The notes under the pieces were generated by a model that saw nothing but the letters and a program-made list of their open reading frames with translations, did no database searches and was not told the DNA's origin. 64,000 nucleotides of DNA from Sediminihaliea albiluteola. GTDB taxonomy: Bacteria; Pseudomonadota; Gammaproteobacteria; Pseudomonadales; Halieaceae. The first letter of the stretch is position 1. Each line of letters opens with the position of its first letter. A program made the position numbers and the translations under genes. Shown here piece by piece: positions 7,339-20,970 of the stretch. Where the stretch lies: NCBI RefSeq assembly GCF_014077625.1, contig NZ_JACFXU010000014.1, positions 620,001-684,000 on the forward strand, written 5' to 3'.

Positions 7339-7535
7339 GCTTGTATTCAAACACTGATTACTTTTCTACAACATCACCTAGCGTTACATCATTAGAAGCA
7401 GCCATATTATAGATACAATAGCTCATCTTGAGTTCCCCGGTTAATGCGCGTGAATCACCTTTTGATTTATTTCACCATGTAGCAATCGACTTCGCAGCGG
7501 AGCCATCAGAAGAAAGAGCTTTAAGCGCTGTGGGT
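7339..7535 (-). repeat. Fragment copied from the 17148-17543 cassette
   Basis: Matches 17405-17600 along about 195 bp, with several small indels. It includes the first 45 or so codons of the 17148-17543 gene and its upstream leader. The copied reading frame is disrupted by frameshifts and stops just after the start (7478), so it is not functional. The match stops abruptly at 7535/17600, where a truncated protease gene begins. Confidence 0.8.
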
Positions 7536-7847
7536 GGTCGATTTCCACCTCAAATACGTGGGTATGACTTCAACCTTGCCCTCACCTGCACCGGTGCCTT
7601 CGGCGCTCTGGGCAGCAAGTGGAGTTCCAAGAGATTGGGCCAAGTGAAGATCAATCGCGGACGGATCCGTACCACTATCCAACAGCATGTTGAAGGGACC
7701 TGCATCATTTACAAATACCGATACAACTATTTGCTGTCGAATAAACTCAAAGCTTGTCGTTCTGGCTGGGCTCGGAGCTACAGGCATGACATGGCAACCC
7801 CAACATGAACAGCGATAAGGCGATGACCAGGCCTGTACCTCGTTTCA
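7521..7847 (-). pseudogene. Retropepsin-like aspartic protease, frameshifted and truncated
   Basis: ATG at 7847 opens a good signal peptide (MKRGTGLVIALSLFMLGLP), then the frame shifts near 7785-7800. The second frame reads FEFIRQQIVVSVFVNDAGPF followed by NMLLDSGTDPSAIDLHLA. The LLDSGTDPSAI segment is the catalytic Asp-Ser/Thr-Gly of clan AA proteases, which act as periplasmic or membrane-anchored enzymes. The rest of the protease is missing after GEGKVEVIPTYL, where the sequence joins the copied fragment of another cassette. It is thus broken at both ends. Confidence 0.72.
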
Positions 7848-10710: not shown

Positions 10711-10748
10711 AGACTCTCACTCATCTTTCGTCTGAAGGTGATATACAG

Positions 10749-10805
10749 CTAACGCTCCGCTAATGTGCGCCGCTTGCGGCGTCACCATTGAGCGGCTTGT
10801 TAGCA
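10749..10805 (-). other. attC site (short)
   Basis: Plus strand runs from GCTAACGCTCCGCTAATG to CATTGAGCGGCTTGTTAGCA, with stem tip GCCGCTTGCGGC. The tail of the broken brnA reads into it. Confidence 0.82.
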
Positions 10806-11029
10806 GCTTCTGCTTGAAGGCGCTCAACCAGCCACACCTTGATGATTGATTGGCGGGTAACGCCAATACGCGCGGCCTCACGATCCAACGACTCTTCGAC
10901 CTATGCGGGAAAGTCCACGTTGATTCGCTTTTGTTCCAGATTGTGGCGACGGGCCGTGGACAGATCAAGAGCTTCAACAATATCTTCCTGGCCTTCGTTG
11001 AATTTTTTATCGAAGTCTTTAGCCTTCAT
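10760..11029 (-). pseudogene. brnA: BrnA-type antitoxin, nonsense mutation
   Basis: The frame from ATG 11029 reads MKAKDFDKKFNEGQEDIVEA, then QKRINVDFPA, a TAG at codon 43 (10903-10901), then VEESLDREAARIGVTRQSII and KVWLVERLQAEA. The second part is the ribbon-helix-helix DNA-binding domain of BrnA antitoxins, normally continuous with the first (FPxWxxESLDREA). The stop thus likely replaced a Trp codon (TGG to TAG). The gene overlaps the end of the BrnT-like frame in the usual brnTA order. The tail reaches into the attC. Antitoxin activity is likely lost unless the stop is read through. Confidence 0.78.
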
Positions 11030-11222
11030 AGAGCTCAACCTCCTTCTTGCGGGAACCTCTGACTGACATCAGACGAATACGACCCTCCCTATACGTGACG
11101 ACAGCGGGCCAATGCTTGCTTGGGGTTCGTCTCACTTTACTGAAATGGCTCCCTAGCACAGCATTTGGACAGGCAGGAACAGAACTAACGGTGAAGGGCG
11201 GTTTGTTGAAGATGACCTTCAT
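11019..11222 (-). pseudogene. brnT: BrnT-type toxin, 5' part degenerate
   Basis: The last 40 residues, PAVVTYREGRIRLMSVRGSR then KKEVELYEG, match the C-terminal half of BrnT ribonuclease toxins (VVYT-R-GRIRIISAR-KERxxYE). The gene ends overlapping brnA by 11 bases, as in functional brnTA operons. Upstream I cannot find the expected N-terminal strand with FEWDxxKAxxNxxKHG, so the 5' half is frame-disrupted or missing. The start shown (ATG 11222) is only the first in-frame ATG. The toxin is probably dead, which would allow loss of the antitoxin. Confidence 0.62.
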
Positions 11223-11292
11223 ATTGTAGCCTTGATAGCGCTGCTGATACCGGCCGGCGATTAATGACCTTCGATGGAGACAGTACATAGCA

Positions 11293-11820
11293 ATGGAAGA
11301 CGAAAATTCTCCTGCTCTGCGTGTTGGTGTGGATTTTCGTGGCACCCAAAACGCGACTCAGCCAGTCCTTGAGCACATCAGGCCAGGCAAAAAACGCGCA
11401 CCGCTGTTGCGCTACATCCGTATCAATCTGCCGCAGACCACCCGGCTGCTACTAGTCGCTGTGATCGCCGTGATTGGTGCCGCTTCGGCAGCAGTTGCGC
11501 TATCGGACCACGAACCATTCCTATTCGCGACCCCGCTTCTGTGGGGTATCTGCGGGGCTGCCATGGTGTTCGTCACCGTGGGCTTGATGAGCTCTGCCCG
11601 CATCTGGACATGGGGGTTGATCATCGCGCTGTCATCCCTGCTGGTCTACATAGGCGGCCTGCTGGGCAATGCGCCCTATGTCTGGAATGGGGCCAGTGTC
11701 GCTTCCGCCGCGATTTGGAATCTGACACTGTTTGCTTCCATAGCCTACATCGTTCTTTTTTGGGCACTGCGCTACGGCATGATCGTCGCCGCTCCCGACA
11801 AGCAAAATTTTCTGGACTGA
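11293..11820 (+). CDS. Four-helix membrane protein, first gene of the Moco operon
   Basis: A 175-residue protein. After a soluble, basic N-terminal segment of about 45 residues it has four hydrophobic helices (about 51-72, 76-101, 104-125, 141-165). No known motif is seen. The next gene, the cytochrome b-molybdopterin fusion, starts 13 bp downstream, so the two are almost certainly cotranscribed and may form one membrane complex. It is on the plus strand, opposite to the cassettes, and visibly more GC-rich than they are. Confidence 0.72.
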   Translation: MEDENSPALRVGVDFRGTQNATQPVLEHIRPGKKRAPLLRYIRINLPQTTRLLLVAVIAVIGAASAAVALSDHEPFLFATPLLWGICGAAMVFVTVGLMSSARIWTWGLIIALSSLLVYIGGLLGNAPYVWNGASVASAAIWNLTLFASIAYIVLFWALRYGMIVAAPDKQNFLD

Positions 11821-11833
11821 TAAGGGTTTATCA

Positions 11834-13351
11834 ATGGATCTCGGGTTTCCGTGGTGGCTTCGTGTAGAGCATTTCCTCAACATCATTTTCATCTCGTTCC
11901 TCGTTCGCTCGGGCCTCGAGATTCTGGCTACATACCCCAAGCTTTACCGCTCGCAGCATACAGTCCCTGGCACATCCTGGGCTCAGTTTACGGTTCAGGA
12001 AGAAGCGAAGCATAAATACTACACGGTGGGCGGCGAGTACAGCGACTACTCCCCTCGCATTTCCCTCCCCGGACGCGGCCTGCTGGGTCTCGGGCGCTAC
12101 TGGCATTTCATCGCCGTTACGGGTTTTGTAACCTGCTGGATAATCTATTTCGTCTTACTGCTGGTTACCGGTCAGTGGCGGCGCTACGTGCCCACCAGTT
12201 GGGACACTTTTTCTCAGGCGGGTCAGGATCTGCTGGCCTATCTTGCCTTCACCATGCCCCAGCCCGTCGATGGCATGGTGTTTAATGCCCTGCAGCAACT
12301 GTCCTATGGTTTTGTGATACTGGTACTGACACCTTTGGTCATCATTACGGGTGCATTTCAGTCGCCGGCCATTGCCAACCATTTTTCGCGCATTACCCGT
12401 GCACTCGGTGGCCGCCAGGTGATCCGTAGCATCCACTTTCTTTGCCTTGTTGGCTACGTCGCATTCTTCGTAATACACGTGCCGCTGGTCTTTCTTCACG
12501 GCTACCTGCACGAGACATCCAAGATGGTATTGGGGCACTCCAACAACCCTGTTTTGGGTGGCGCCATTTTCACCTTTGGCCTCATCCTCGTCATCGTCCT
12601 GCACGTGCTTGCTACGCGCTGGACCCTGGCAGACGGCCGTGCCGTTGAGAGACTGCATAACGTGATTGTGCGGCCATGGTCGAACCTGCTCTACAAACTG
12701 CCCGCGCGCATGCACTACGATCGCTCGAATATCACCGGTAAGGATGTAGGTCTTGATAACACCACCCATAATTTCCGTGGCAGCGGGCGGCCACCAGAAA
12801 CCGCCGAGTACCTTGCTCTTATGGCCAACTGCTACGAGGACGACTACGTGCTGGAGATCGGTGGCTACGTGGAGCGGCCTATGACACTGACCATTGCGGA
12901 ACTTCGCGAGCTTGCCGCAGGCCACTCCCAGACAACGCTTCACCACTGTGTACAGGGCTTCACCTCGATTGGGCGGTGGCGCGGCATTACTGTGTCAGAC
13001 CTCCTGGATCTGGCTGGGCCCTTGCCCGGCGCGACTGACGTGGTGTACACCAGCTTCCAGAACATGGGCCGTGATGACGCCCTGTACGAGGGGGGAACCT
13101 ACTATGTGTCCACACCCATGGTTGAGGCTCGAATGCCCCAGACGTTAATTGCCTTTGAGCTTAACGACGAAGGCGAGATCCCGGCCAAAAATGGGGGGCC
13201 GGTTCGGCTGCGCCTGGAAAGCTCGACCGGCTTTCGCAGTCTGAAGTGGCTGGAACGTATTGAGGTGGTCAACCGCTACGATATTATCCTTGAGGGCCGT
13301 GGGGGCTACTTCGAGGACACGGACTTCTTCGACCGCAACCAGTTGATCTGA
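11834..13351 (+). CDS. Cytochrome b561-like / sulfite-oxidase-like molybdopterin oxidoreductase fusion
   Basis: 505 residues in two modules. Residues 1-265 form about five membrane helices with histidines suited to bind two hemes (VEHFLN, GRYWHF, RSIHFL, VIHVPLVFLHG), as in cytochrome b561/formate dehydrogenase gamma. Residues about 310-490 are a sulfite-oxidase/YedY-type Mo-cofactor domain with LHHCVQGFTS, where Cys372 would ligate Mo, and the following GRWRGI. There is no Tat signal; by the positive-inside rule the C-terminal domain faces the cytoplasm. In MsrPQ the same functions are split, with the Mo subunit in the periplasm. Substrate unknown. Confidence 0.85.
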   Translation: MDLGFPWWLRVEHFLNIIFISFLVRSGLEILATYPKLYRSQHTVPGTSWAQFTVQEEAKHKYYTVGGEYSDYSPRISLPGRGLLGLGRYWHFIAVTGFVTCWIIYFVLLLVTGQWRRYVPTSWDTFSQAGQDLLAYLAFTMPQPVDGMVFNALQQLSYGFVILVLTPLVIITGAFQSPAIANHFSRITRALGGRQVIRSIHFLCLVGYVAFFVIHVPLVFLHGYLHETSKMVLGHSNNPVLGGAIFTFGLILVIVLHVLATRWTLADGRAVERLHNVIVRPWSNLLYKLPARMHYDRSNITGKDVGLDNTTHNFRGSGRPPETAEYLALMANCYEDDYVLEIGGYVERPMTLTIAELRELAAGHSQTTLHHCVQGFTSIGRWRGITVSDLLDLAGPLPGATDVVYTSFQNMGRDDALYEGGTYYVSTPMVEARMPQTLIAFELNDEGEIPAKNGGPVRLRLESSTGFRSLKWLERIEVVNRYDIILEGRGGYFEDTDFFDRNQLI

Positions 13352-13382
13352 CTGTCCGCGAGAAGAAAAAGGAAGCAGTTTC

Positions 13383-14255
13383 ATGACGCTGAAAAAAACA
13401 CGCCCACGCACCCAAGCCGAGCTCGATGCCTACATTGCCGCGCGCCCCAGACCGGTGCGCAATACTTTTGAAGGTATGTACCCTCTGCATGAGGACATCG
13501 AGCTATCGGACGAACAAGTGCAGATTGTGCTGGACTACCTGCAAGAGGTTAATTTCCACTTGCCCGGCGCCGCTGCCCATGAGTTTATCGTGGTTCGCTG
13601 GGCCCGCTACACCGGCTTTCAGTTTATGCAGGAGCCCTTGGAAGCTTATGCCATCGGGCTTCGCTGCACTCATCCCGGTATGGAAGACCAACACACCTTC
13701 ATTCGTATGTCCTGGGGTCAGTTGATGGGTGATCCCGAGGCTGTCCGTCTGCCGGTCAATGAGCCGGTGCTGGCCAGCGATATGATGACACTTGCCCGTT
13801 ATCGCGATACTCGTACTGGGCCCTCGCGAACGGGTATTGACGCCTATGGTGCTGCGTCCGACAACTCGGTGCCCGGCGCAGACTTCGACCTGAAGCTGTT
13901 GAATGGAGCACTCGATGACGTGCTGAAGCAGCATCTGAGCGGCAAGGGTCGCGAAGTTAACTCATGGTGGGATCCCGCACTTAACTGGGGGGTCGCGTTG
14001 GCAGGACGCTACCCGCGACTGAAATACTTCGAGTCTAAGGGGCGTCTTGATGAGGAAACCTTAGCTGGTTTACGCTCCTTCGAGGCACGGGCAGCGCAGG
14101 CGGAAACTGCGTTGCAGGAACTCGGTCTGGCCTCCCCTGCATCCGTGGCCGAGTCAGCGCTTAAACAGGCGGAGCAAGCGGAGAATAGAAAGTTTTTTCG
14201 CCGCCATCGTATCCGCAACCCACAGCCGCTCACCGAATCAGAACGTGACACCTAG
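13383..14255 (+). CDS. Unknown soluble protein, third gene of the Moco operon
   Basis: 290 residues without signal peptide or membrane helix. The first 110 residues contain a conserved-looking core (AHEFIVVRWARYTGFQF, GLRCTHPGMEDQHTFIRMSW); the last 80 are helical and very charged (FEARAAQAETALQELGL..., KFFRRHRIRNPQPL), possibly a coiled coil. It follows the fusion gene by 31 bp with a GAAGAAAAAGGAAG ribosome-binding region. It may be a cytoplasmic partner or substrate-delivering subunit of the oxidoreductase. I recognise no family. Confidence 0.72.
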   Translation: MTLKKTRPRTQAELDAYIAARPRPVRNTFEGMYPLHEDIELSDEQVQIVLDYLQEVNFHLPGAAAHEFIVVRWARYTGFQFMQEPLEAYAIGLRCTHPGMEDQHTFIRMSWGQLMGDPEAVRLPVNEPVLASDMMTLARYRDTRTGPSRTGIDAYGAASDNSVPGADFDLKLLNGALDDVLKQHLSGKGREVNSWWDPALNWGVALAGRYPRLKYFESKGRLDEETLAGLRSFEARAAQAETALQELGLASPASVAESALKQAEQAENRKFFRRHRIRNPQPLTESERDT

Positions 14256-14387: not shown

Positions 14388-14634
14388 ATGGCCGATCTAT
14401 ACGACATAAGCGCACCAAAAAAAAGCCGCAAATTTATCGGCTAACAGCGACTTGCTGAAAAAGACCCGCGCTCTGAACATTAACCTGTCCGCGACCCTTG
14501 AACGAGCACTGAAAGAAGAATTAGCAAAGCACAAGCCTGCCCAATGGATAGAGGAAAACCGGACAGCAATCAGAAGCTACAACGAGTTCGTCGAACAGCA
14601 TGGCTGTTTCGGGGATGAATTTCGGGAGTTTTGA
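14388..14634 (+). pseudogene. ccdA: CcdA-type antitoxin, one-base frameshift in an A8 run
   Basis: ATG at 14388, preceded by TTGGAG, gives MADLYDISAPKK as in CcdA antitoxins, then shifts out of frame at the eight A residues 14417-14424. With seven A the frame would read on as AANLSANSDLLKKTRALNIN and LSATLERALKEELA to the characteristic C-terminus AIRSYNEFVEQHGCFGDEF that binds CcdB. The downstream frame is intact to TGA 14632-14634, overlapping the ccdB start. The extra A may be a sequencing error or could be restored by slippage. It is on the plus strand, opposite to the cassettes, as is common for toxin-antitoxin cassettes. Confidence 0.8.
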
Positions 14635-14950
14635 TGTCTCAGTTCGACGTTTAACCAAACCCCAGCAAAATTAGTAAGTCACACTACCCTTACTTGCTGG
14701 ATGTTCAAAGTTCTCTCCTGACAGATCTCACAACTCGTATTGTTATCCCACTAGGCAGGCACGCGGCTTTTAGCGGTCAAGCTATGCAAGGCCTCACTCC
14801 GGTAGTCACTTTTGCCGACCAGGAATTGCTGTTGCTAACACCACAAATTTCTTCAGTGCCTGAAACTAGCTCAAGAACCCGATCGGTTCCCTTTCACATT
14901 TCAGAAATCAGATTGTTGTAGCTCTCGATCTCGCTTTCACGGGCATTTAA
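14634..14950 (+). pseudogene. ccdB: CcdB-type gyrase toxin, nonsense codon and frameshift
   Basis: The frame from ATG 14634 (overlapping the ccdA stop) reads MSQFDV, then TAA at codon 7 (14652-14654) where CcdB has Tyr, then PNPSKISKSHYPYLLDVQSS, LLTDLTTRIVIPLGR and TPVVTFADQELLLLTPQI. After SVP the frame is lost; a second frame supplies LKNPIGSLSHFRNQIVVALD and LAFTGI, ending at TAA 14948-14950. CcdB poisons DNA gyrase; this copy has two independent lesions and cannot make toxin. Its stop abuts the attC at 14947. Confidence 0.85.
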
Positions 14951-15016
14951 CGCCGCGCTTTGCGGTAAATTTGGAGCGCAGCGGAAAACCAGTCCGACAA
15001 CATGCGCTTGTTAGTT
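14947..15016 (-). other. attC site
   Basis: Plus strand runs from TTAACGCCGCGCTTTGCGG to ACATGCGCTTGTTAGTT; the interior GGAGCGCAGCGGAAAA is shared with the attCs at 5729, 17085 and 18948. R'' supplies the stop of the DUF3800 gene. Confidence 0.9.
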
Positions 15017-16420: not shown

Positions 16421-16441
16421 AACCGAATCTCCTTTGTGTAC

Positions 16442-16523
16442 CTAACGCCGCCAGTATGCGCGGCTTTGTAGTGGAGGCAAAGCCGCAACGGAAAAGCCGC
16501 CGCTGTGCTTGGCCTTGTTAGAT
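16442..16523 (-). other. attC site
   Basis: Plus strand runs from CCTAACGCCGCCAGTATG to GCTTGGCCTTGTTAGAT. Long complementary arms GCGGCTTTG and CAAAGCCGC. One of the clearest sites. Confidence 0.9.
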
Positions 16524-17153: not shown

Positions 17154-17543
17154 GCTGACATGCTTCAACAGCAGCCATATTCTTTTACTGATATTGATTA
17201 CCCTCACTCCCCAACGATAATTCTTACTATTACCGACATGAGGGAAACGTGTTTTTATTTCGTTTATCTTGTCGTAAATAGAAACAACCAATTCTTCGGT
17301 TTCTTTCCCACCCCATTTCTCCAAGTCCGTCCCTTCAAGGGACGGATATTTCGTTATTTTAGATTTCTTGAGCTTGTTAAAGTTGAAACCTTCATTAGCT
17401 AGGCGCTTGTATTCAGTCACTGATAGTTTCTCTGCAACATCGCCTAGCGATACACCATCAGAGGCGACCATATCGAGATACGATAGGTTATCTTTGAGCT
17501 CCCCAACTAGTGCGCATGAATCACCTTTTGATTTACTCACCAT
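17148..17543 (-). CDS. Cassette protein, unknown (parent of the fragment at 7339-7535)
   Basis: A 131-residue protein without signal peptide. The first 45 residues contain LSYLDMVASDGVSLGDVAEKL, which looks like a helix-turn-helix-like helical pair; the rest is basic (FNFNKLKKSKITKYPSLEG) and ends KRIWLLLKHVSK. No family recognised. Its 5' half and leader occur again, decayed, at 7339-7535. Stop TAA lies inside the attC. Confidence 0.7.
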   Translation of the reverse strand: MVSKSKGDSCALVGELKDNLSYLDMVASDGVSLGDVAEKLSVTEYKRLANEGFNFNKLKKSKITKYPSLEGTDLEKWGGKETEELVVSIYDKINEIKTRFPHVGNSKNYRWGVRVINISKRIWLLLKHVSK

Positions 17544-17632
17544 GAAGTAATCGACTTCGCAGCGGAGCCACCAGAAGAAATAGCTTTAAGTGCTGTGGGT
17601 ATTGTTATGTCCATGTCTTTATTCTTGTGCAG

Positions 17633-18947: not shown

Positions 18948-19017
18948 CTAACGCCGTCCTCTGCGGCAATTTTGGAGCACAGCGGAAAAATTGTCCGACA
19001 GCAGCACTTTGTTATAC
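18948..19017 (-). other. attC site
   Basis: Plus strand runs from CTAACGCCGTCCTCTGCGG to CAGCACTTTGTTATAC. The interior GGAGCACAGCGGAAAAATTG and GTCCGACAGCAGC match other sites. R'' supplies the stop of the helicase gene. Confidence 0.9.
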
Positions 19018-20970
19018 TCTTTCCATATCGTTTTCTATAGCGTCTGATAACTCAATTACCTCAAGAGAGCCTTTAAAAAAGTCGGAATACTTAGAGTTTT
19101 TTTCGAGAAAAACAACCAAGTTGAACTTTGCTCTTGTGAGACCAACATAAACCAACTCAGCGCTATCTAGCTCATTAACAATCAAAAAAACAGTTGGTGA
19201 CTCATAACCTTTAAAACTATGTATTGTCGATATTTTTAAAACACCACTATTCAGGTTGAATCCATATTTTTTATTACTTCTTATTTTTTCAGTTTCACTA
19301 CGATCTATACGTGAAGAACAATAAGCTTCTTTTGTTTCAAATGTTGTCAAAGTTTTTTCGTTAAAGTTTGCATTTTTTCTTATCAAAAAATCGATTTCCC
19401 GCATTTGAGAAATGCTTGATGAAATAATAACCATGTCATTTGGGTGAATAGACTCACGTTTTGCAACAGAAAATACATAACTAACGATTGAATCTATATC
19501 GCTTCCGTCAATCAATACACATTCATTTACTCCAACCCCTGTCAACGCAGGTTGCATCGCCTCAGAAAAATCGAGTTCGTACCGATCACTAAAAAATGCT
19601 TCCTGAAACCTTTTTGCAACATCTAATATGTGCGAATCTTCTTTATAACGAAAAGATTTAGACAGCTTATTCCAACGACCAAAACCTTGAATTACCTTTG
19701 TTGAATTTTCTTCATCAATTTCCCTTTCATAAATATTCTGCTTCTCGTCCCCAAAAAGAACCATTTCGCCTTGATCAGATAAAAAGTATTTACGTATTAT
19801 CTTTATCCACTCAGGCTTATAGTCTTGAATCTCATCGATTAATATTGTGTCGAACTTTTCTTCAATTTCGCAACTTTCAAAAACACTTTCATTTGAGTAA
19901 TATTTCGAATCCAGGTAGGCACTGACCTTTTTCTTATCATTTTTTATTTCTTCAGGAACACTTACATCTATCCCATATTGACTGAGTGCTGCACTCATAA
20001 ACCTATGGTAATTAATGATGCCAAAAGCTCCCCAGGAAAAATCACTTCTCACTTCATTTAATTTGTCTTTAATGTACATCCTAAGAGTAAGATTAAACGT
20101 GAGTATAAGAACGTTACCGCGATGTCTCGAATGTGCATTTACCGCCCTTTTCGCCAGTACGGTAGTTTTTCCTGAACCTGCAACCCCTTTAATTTTTTCT
20201 CGCTTGCCCTGCTCGCTGGTTACGAGCCTTTCTTGCACCTTGGTGTATTCAATTTCTTTCCCTTCATTGAGATAATGATAAGGAGGCTGCAAATATCTTA
20301 AGAAAGCATCATGAATTGATATAGGGTATATTTCACTCTTCTTGGAAAGTGGAAATTTGATTTTTATTAACTGATCTTTGGTAACTGAATGCCGATACAG
20401 ATCCCTTTCAAACCTTTTTATTTTTGAGTTCAGCCATTCTCTCTTTCGCTCATATTTGTCATAGTCTATTGGGTTTTCAGCATATGCATTATTATGCTCT
20501 TTGAGCATACCCTTGAATTCGTCTATTCTGGGAGAAAAAAATCTTTGAATAGACTCTTTATTCTCGCTATGGAAATAAACGTAACAAGATATCGCCTTGT
20601 AAAAATTCTTATTATTTAAGTTTTTTTCTAAAAGCCCATTAATATGAAGATCAAACATATTCTTCTTGTAGCCAAAAACTTGGGCGAACGGTGATCGTAT
20701 TACCGACCCATTGTTATTTACATGCCACTTGTTGTTTTCATCCAAATTATAAAATGACAAGTCCCAGTCTTTTACTTCGATTATGATCACACCCATTATC
20801 TGGTGAATAATTATAATGTCAGGTCTTTCACCGTTAAAAAATGGCTGAAAGTATATCTCCACTTCCGCATCAAAATTCTGCGACAGCTCATTTAGAAGAA
20901 ATAACTCACCCTCAGTCGGCTTCTGCTTGCTTTTCTTGATGACTTCAAGGCTTGGGAATATTTTAGCCAT
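19012..20970 (-). CDS. NERD-domain / UvrD-like helicase
   Basis: 652 residues. The N-terminus (about 15-130) is a nuclease-related NERD domain: GELFLLNEL, then RPDIIIIHQIMGVIIIEVKD with its Asp-(x)n-Glu-x-Lys core. The rest is a superfamily 1 UvrD-like helicase: Walker A GVAGSGKTTVLAKRA (about 262-276), Walker B ILIDEIQDY, and a C-terminal VYVGLTRAKFNLVVFL. No RecB-type nuclease domain follows. It is the largest cassette, complete, and strikingly AT-rich compared with the flanks. NERD-helicases are found near defence genes; a role against foreign DNA is possible but not shown. Confidence 0.88.
   Translation of the reverse strand: MAKIFPSLEVIKKSKQKPTEGELFLLNELSQNFDAEVEIYFQPFFNGERPDIIIIHQIMGVIIIEVKDWDLSFYNLDENNKWHVNNNGSVIRSPFAQVFGYKKNMFDLHINGLLEKNLNNKNFYKAISCYVYFHSENKESIQRFFSPRIDEFKGMLKEHNNAYAENPIDYDKYERKREWLNSKIKRFERDLYRHSVTKDQLIKIKFPLSKKSEIYPISIHDAFLRYLQPPYHYLNEGKEIEYTKVQERLVTSEQGKREKIKGVAGSGKTTVLAKRAVNAHSRHRGNVLILTFNLTLRMYIKDKLNEVRSDFSWGAFGIINYHRFMSAALSQYGIDVSVPEEIKNDKKKVSAYLDSKYYSNESVFESCEIEEKFDTILIDEIQDYKPEWIKIIRKYFLSDQGEMVLFGDEKQNIYEREIDEENSTKVIQGFGRWNKLSKSFRYKEDSHILDVAKRFQEAFFSDRYELDFSEAMQPALTGVGVNECVLIDGSDIDSIVSYVFSVAKRESIHPNDMVIISSSISQMREIDFLIRKNANFNEKTLTTFETKEAYCSSRIDRSETEKIRSNKKYGFNLNSGVLKISTIHSFKGYESPTVFLIVNELDSAELVYVGLTRAKFNLVVFLEKNSKYSDFFKGSLEVIELSDAIENDMERV

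Follow-up and report, generated by a model that had tools for sequence, protein, structure and literature searches.

Three genes in an attC-like array

Three plus-strand genes lie next to one another in an array within the window, the whole 64,000-nucleotide stretch of Sediminihaliea albiluteola DNA analysed here, to which all coordinates refer. Gene 1 (11293–11820, plus strand) encodes a membrane protein of 175 amino acids with a basic 51-residue N-terminus, four hydrophobic segments by hydropathy (residues 52–70, 76–94, 107–125, and 141–159), and a conserved loop, NAPYVWNGAS. Gene 2 (11834–13351, plus strand) encodes 505 amino acids, a cytochrome b with five transmembrane segments (TMs) fused to a sulfite-oxidase-fold Mo domain, and gene 3 (13383–14255, plus strand) encodes a soluble orphan of 290 amino acids, the core of which (residues 23–215) is strongly conserved. 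These open reading frames bear out an earlier note on this DNA, which had described a four-helix membrane protein, a cytochrome b-Mo fusion with Cys372, and an unknown 290-residue protein in this order. Its remark that the genes are GC-richer than the neighboring cassettes also held, with a GC content of 0.54–0.58 for the trio versus 0.40–0.47 in the surrounding array.

Neither gene 1, which represents an orphan family, nor gene 3 had a relative in Pfam, NCBIfam, or PDB. An AlphaFold2 model of gene 3 built from 20 orthologues reached a pLDDT of 62, and its best match in PDB had an E value of only 0.26. Upstream of gene 1, the stretch 11236–11292 (plus strand; CACCGGCCGGCGATTAATG...GGAG) is the probable promoter and ribosome-binding region; the alignment and the blastn extents show it to be conserved at roughly half of the loci.

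The module has one attC-like site on its left (10747–10805) and one on its right (14947–15014), the latter belonging to a direct-repeat family, D1, with four other members; another site of the array lies at 16440–16523. The two flanking sites span a 4.1-kb stretch that holds the trio and a degraded ccdAB. No integron integrase scored over the cut-off in the genome, so that the array, built of attC-like repeats, has the look of an attC cluster without an integrase. The ccdAB toxin-antitoxin remnant (14390–14900, plus strand), between the trio and the right-hand site, has interrupted frames, with a CcdA part that matched PF07362 at 85 bits. On the other side, 10820–11230 (minus strand) resembles a decayed BrnT/BrnA-type pair by eye, but the piece of it that was tested was unconfirmed by Pfam. 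Farther along the array, a related cassette pair is repeated at 7339–7600 and 17405–17600 (80–92% identical DNA in three blocks), and a gene at 19012–20970 (minus strand), encoding a NERD domain and a UvrD-type helicase, matches the PADLOC candidate defence model C3a187.

Domains and cofactors of gene 2

The N-terminal part of gene 2 matched the Pfam family Ni_hydr_CYTB (PF01292) over residues 5–232 (E 1.2e-13; 51.6 bits, cut-off 30.1), and the C-terminal part matched Oxidored_molyb (PF00174) over residues 335–481 (E 5.4e-26; 91.6 bits, cut-off 24). Cys372, at the Mo-ligating position, was invariant in 20 of 20 orthologues and, together with the PF00174 score, places the protein among the sulfite-oxidase-fold (Oxidored_molyb) molybdoenzymes. 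His13, His91, His201, and His215 were also invariant in the 20 orthologues and line up across the wider family of fusions; with the PF01292 score, these conserved histidines place the N-terminal part among the Ni_hydr_CYTB cytochromes b. The four residues are likely heme ligands, in a pattern that fits two b hemes. A structure model of gene 2 reached a pLDDT of 38 and was left out of use.

Mo-cofactor genes, to which the earlier note had pointed, were present in the form of MoaA in the window's genome and in 19 of 19 other hosts. All trio hosts make molybdopterin, and gene 2 is predicted to bind Mo-molybdopterin. At C10:305072, the window's genome carries another sulfite-oxidase-fold gene, separate from gene 2.

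Membrane topology of gene 2

Hydropathy gave five TMs for gene 2, of which TM5 is strongly hydrophobic. When the N-terminus was set outside, the inside loops carried 16–19 lysine and arginine residues versus 4–5 on the outside loops, and this was so in all 20 proteins. A twin arginine (RR) was absent from the TM4–TM5 region, and from the position before TM5, in 20 of 20 sequences. Relatives from Rhodococcus, Curtobacterium, Variovorax, and Bradyrhizobium have one extra TM at the N-terminus, which mostly begins with basic residues; the same charge rule again puts their C-terminal domain inside. In one split relative (L029), the charge pattern was reversed and the Mo subunit bore a twin-arginine sequence. 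A cytoplasmic Mo domain is favored because of the charge bias, the absence of RR, and this comparative evidence; gene 2 would thus probably have five TMs, with the N-terminus out and the Mo domain in the cytoplasm. The earlier note had claimed that a Tat signal is lacking and that positive charges put the Mo domain inside. The first claim agrees with the RR count (0/20), and the second with the charge pattern of all 20 proteins and of the wider fused family.

Relatives of the fusion and known systems

A tblastn search of plasmids with gene 2 returned 96 records at 80% coverage or more, in which the fused matches were 32–36% identical. The best plasmid fusions (33–36%) came from Rhodococcus, Natrinema, Curtobacterium, Variovorax, Rhizobium, and Bradyrhizobium and were annotated as "molybdopterin-dependent oxidoreductase." By full-length similarity and the same charge sidedness, gene 2 belongs with these fused Ni_hydr_CYTB-Mo oxidoreductases. 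They share its domain order over the full length, its conserved His and Cys residues, and its sidedness by charge, but many differ from it in the extra N-terminal TM. No counterparts of genes 1 and 3 were found in the annotation of six neighborhoods of such fusions. In open-access papers, we found no study of a Ni_hydr_CYTB-Oxidored_molyb fusion, and the family is apparently annotated but unstudied.

The earlier note had called the arrangement undescribed. This stands for the trio and its orphan partners but overstates the case for the fusion because annotated fusions that share this architecture over their full length are common, occurring in rhizobia, Rhodococcus, Curtobacterium, Natrinema, and other taxa, haloarchaea included. 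What is new here is the conserved trio, its two orphan partners, its mobility, and its link to trimethylamine monooxygenase (Tmm); the fusion itself is already known.

Three known systems resemble gene 2 in part. In MsrPQ (YedYZ), too, a membrane heme b protein supplies a Mo domain of the sulfite-oxidase fold, but the two parts are encoded by separate genes and the Mo subunit is Tat-exported; the fusion to a cytochrome and the absence of RR in the TM4–TM5 region set gene 2 apart from MsrP. The split cytochrome b561/Mo subunit pairs, as in Paraburkholderia fungorum and in genome G032, contain the same two domains in adjacent genes but differ in a twin-arginine, lipoprotein-like signal on the Mo subunit and a reversed charge pattern in the cytochrome. 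The heme-Moco fusion Sco3746 has five TMs with heme b and then a C-terminal Moco domain in one chain, as does gene 2; its Moco domain is exported, in dependence on an RR directly before TM5, and its heme ligands lie in TMDs 2–4 (Tooke et al. 2017; PMC5449189). By contrast, a twin arginine directly before TM5 was found in 0 of 20 gene 2 proteins, the charge bias is opposite, and one likely heme ligand lies in TM1. The earlier claim of a topology inverse to that of MsrPQ is supported by the comparative evidence. The word "undescribed" goes too far for the fusion also because an analogous cytochrome b-Moco fusion, with an exported domain, was studied in 2017 (PMC5449189).

Conservation and horizontal spread of the trio

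With gene 3 as the sole query, 84,980 species genomes were scanned and yielded 19 further loci, and genes 1, 2, and 3 were present in the same order and on the same strand in 19 of 19; because gene 3 was the query, copies without it would be missed by this count. Across the 19 loci, identity was 71–87% for gene 1, 81–95% to the window copy for gene 2, and 71–91% for gene 3. This protein-level conservation in 19 other genomes means that the trio is not a chance find, and the co-occurrence of the three genes in diverse genomes, proposed earlier, extends over two phyla. The hosts are Gammaproteobacteria (Denitrificimonas, Oceanisphaera, Oceanimonas, Marinospirillum, Marinobacterium, Halomonas, Vreelandella, Marinomonas, Marinobacter, Aliidiomarina, and an Aeromonadales MAG), one Betaproteobacterium (an Alcaligenaceae MAG), and Actinomycetota (Arthrobacter and Dietzia). 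A transposase gene is inserted between genes 2 and 3 at the Vreelandella locus. The trio is rare, gene 3 occurring in 1 of 369 genomes of the class and 1 of 398 of the phylum, in both cases the window itself, with no further relatives in either set. No relatives of gene 2 or gene 3 were found in viral contigs, and none of gene 3 in plasmids.

The trio flanks were mostly unrelated between loci, the exceptions being a handful of related strain pairs. In blastn, DNA identity came in blocks whose ends lay close to the trio. A tree of the joined proteins was star-like, with Marinobacterium nested within Oceanimonas. Because the order is kept while the flanks are unrelated, similarity stops near the trio, and the tree is star-like, we read the trio as one horizontally moving functional unit.

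A role in phage defence was rejected, as the trio had no PADLOC match. Betaine/choline transport as a common context was rejected too, since its occurrences were too scattered (BCCT genes in 3 of 19 flanks and a choline-dehydrogenase-like gene in one). The two Arthrobacter copies (L044 and L045), both from hosts without Tmm, have downstream of them a Rieske gene resembling glycine-betaine monooxygenase, a gene for an IclR regulator, and one or more genes for small membrane proteins. In Denitrificimonas, a TauE-type exporter gene adjoins the trio.

Association with trimethylamine monooxygenase

In Vreelandella jeotgali, the only tmm gene lies directly upstream of gene 1 on the same strand (831 bits, cut-off 675), and because of this adjacency, which was seen in one genome only, Tmm was searched for in all hosts. 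It scored over the curated cut-off in 16 of 20, including the window's genome and Dietzia; the hosts without it were Marinospirillum, the Alcaligenaceae MAG, and the two Arthrobacter. In the same order, 18 of 293 genomes had Tmm, two of which are hosts (the window's own and one taken as Marinobacterium weihaiense from the matching contig number, coordinates, and score of its tmm), leaving 16 of 291 non-hosts. The difference between hosts (16/20) and order (16/291) gave a Fisher p of ∼1e-14; when each host genus was counted once, p was ∼1e-11. These values take no account of habitat and partial account of phylogeny, and the hosts are partly non-independent. Within the family of Halomonas halodenitrificans, Tmm was present in 3 of 3 hosts versus 10 of 148 other genomes (p 5e-4), so that the background is ∼5–7% in both order and family. 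On the Tmm tree, the host label needs at least six changes, and one shared ancestor therefore fails to explain the link. The converse does not hold: the trio was found in 0 of 27 Tmm-positive or near-positive non-hosts, and Tmm thus does not imply the module.

Catabolism of trimethylamine (TMA) via TMAO demethylase was rejected as a common pathway for most hosts, since DUF1989, the demethylase marker, was present in 2 of 20 hosts and missing from 18; 14 of the 16 Tmm-positive hosts lacked it. Among non-hosts, a demethylase homologue lay near tmm in 11 of 26, a weak difference (p 0.04). By eye, tmm was within ∼10 kb of thiamine-synthesis-like genes in the Oceanisphaera and Oceanimonas hosts (L058, L059, L064, and L069). 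Because phylogeny is partly and habitat wholly uncorrected and the idea first came from the flanks, we grade the Tmm link as a strong lead, not proof; it may partly reflect a common saline niche.

A model for the trio and its alternatives

The reading that we tentatively prefer, with somewhat less than even confidence, is that the trio encodes a mobile, membrane-bound, quinone-linked molybdoenzyme facing the cytoplasm, with Tmm-made DMSO or TMAO as its most likely substrate. From the evidence above we infer the complex, its hemes, its topology, its substrate, and its direction. The fused cytochrome b, with five TMs, the N-terminus out, and two b hemes, would be the electron path that connects the Mo site to the quinone pool. 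The four-TM protein of gene 1 would probably be the membrane partner of gene 2, and the gene 3 protein may dock on the cytoplasmic side, where it could confer specificity or take part in electron transfer. With its Mo site in the cytoplasm, the enzyme would meet the Tmm product where it is made and could exchange an oxygen atom with DMSO (or TMAO). If a single reaction had to be named, it would be the oxidation of DMSO to dimethyl sulfone, with quinone as the electron acceptor, as sulfone formation would be sulfite-oxidase type chemistry, the transfer of oxygen to a sulfur lone pair. The reverse sense, a quinol-driven, YedY-like reduction of the oxide, would be nearly as likely, the sequence deciding for neither.

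Tmm oxidizes DMS to DMSO (PMC8498191), and for marine bacteria DMSO has been described as apparently the end product (PMC13352529). That the mobile three-gene enzyme continues DMS or TMA oxidation past Tmm, for example from DMSO to dimethyl sulfone, for respiratory use is in our estimate an unlikely extension; if true, bacteria could put to use in respiration what has until now been regarded as an end product. Through the Tmm link, the trio gains a candidate substrate that can be tested directly and that belongs to the marine DMS and methylamine cycles, where the point at issue is what becomes of DMSO made by Tmm. In MsrPQ and Sco3746, the bacterial combinations of a sulfite-oxidase-fold Mo domain with a membrane heme b protein described so far, the Mo domain is outside. 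A conserved, widely transferred unit with its catalytic domain inside would, if true, show the same parts turned round.

The trio could instead form a reductase of S- or N-oxides, whether methionine sulfoxide, DMSO, or TMAO, that faces the cytoplasm and is driven by quinol; MsrPQ chemistry would then run inward, for repair or to use the oxides as electron acceptors. We regard this as possible though not probable. The best PDB match, the bacterial sulfite oxidase-type structure 1xdq, is E. coli YedY, and the best curated profile for the Mo domain is that of MsrP (NF003767). However, the domain scored 46.4 bits against a cut-off of 207 there, with all scores far under the MsrP cut-off, and MsrA/MsrB already take care of methionine sulfoxide in the cytoplasm. 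YedY, the nearest characterized type, weakly reduces DMSO and TMAO (PMC4228395). Re-reduction of the Tmm product would set up a futile cycle in air, which speaks against this reading.

More doubtful is a dehydrogenase for sulfite or another small molecule that is unrelated to Tmm, in which case the Tmm link would come from saline habitat and gene exchange among halophiles. Sulfite dehydrogenases belong to the fold family, marine or halophilic bacteria make up most of the hosts, and the TauE-type exporter gene beside the Denitrificimonas trio would fit such a role. Against this, Tmm is rare in the same order and family, and gene 2 falls far short of the sulfite dehydrogenase cut-offs (SorA, 42 of 600 bits; SoxC, 32 of 420; SorT, 21 of 570).

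The succession of five TMs and a C-terminal Mo domain would also suit a Sec-Tat hand-over to the periplasm, as in Sco3746 (PMC5449189), but the lack of a twin arginine before TM5 (0/20), the strong hydrophobicity of TM5, and the opposite charge bias make export improbable. Least credible of all is a pterin-binding sensor without Moco: pterin-sensing proteins that share the sulfite-oxidase fold have been reported, but here the Mo-ligating Cys is invariant (20/20), a heme-binding cytochrome b is fused to the domain, and Moco synthesis is present in every host.
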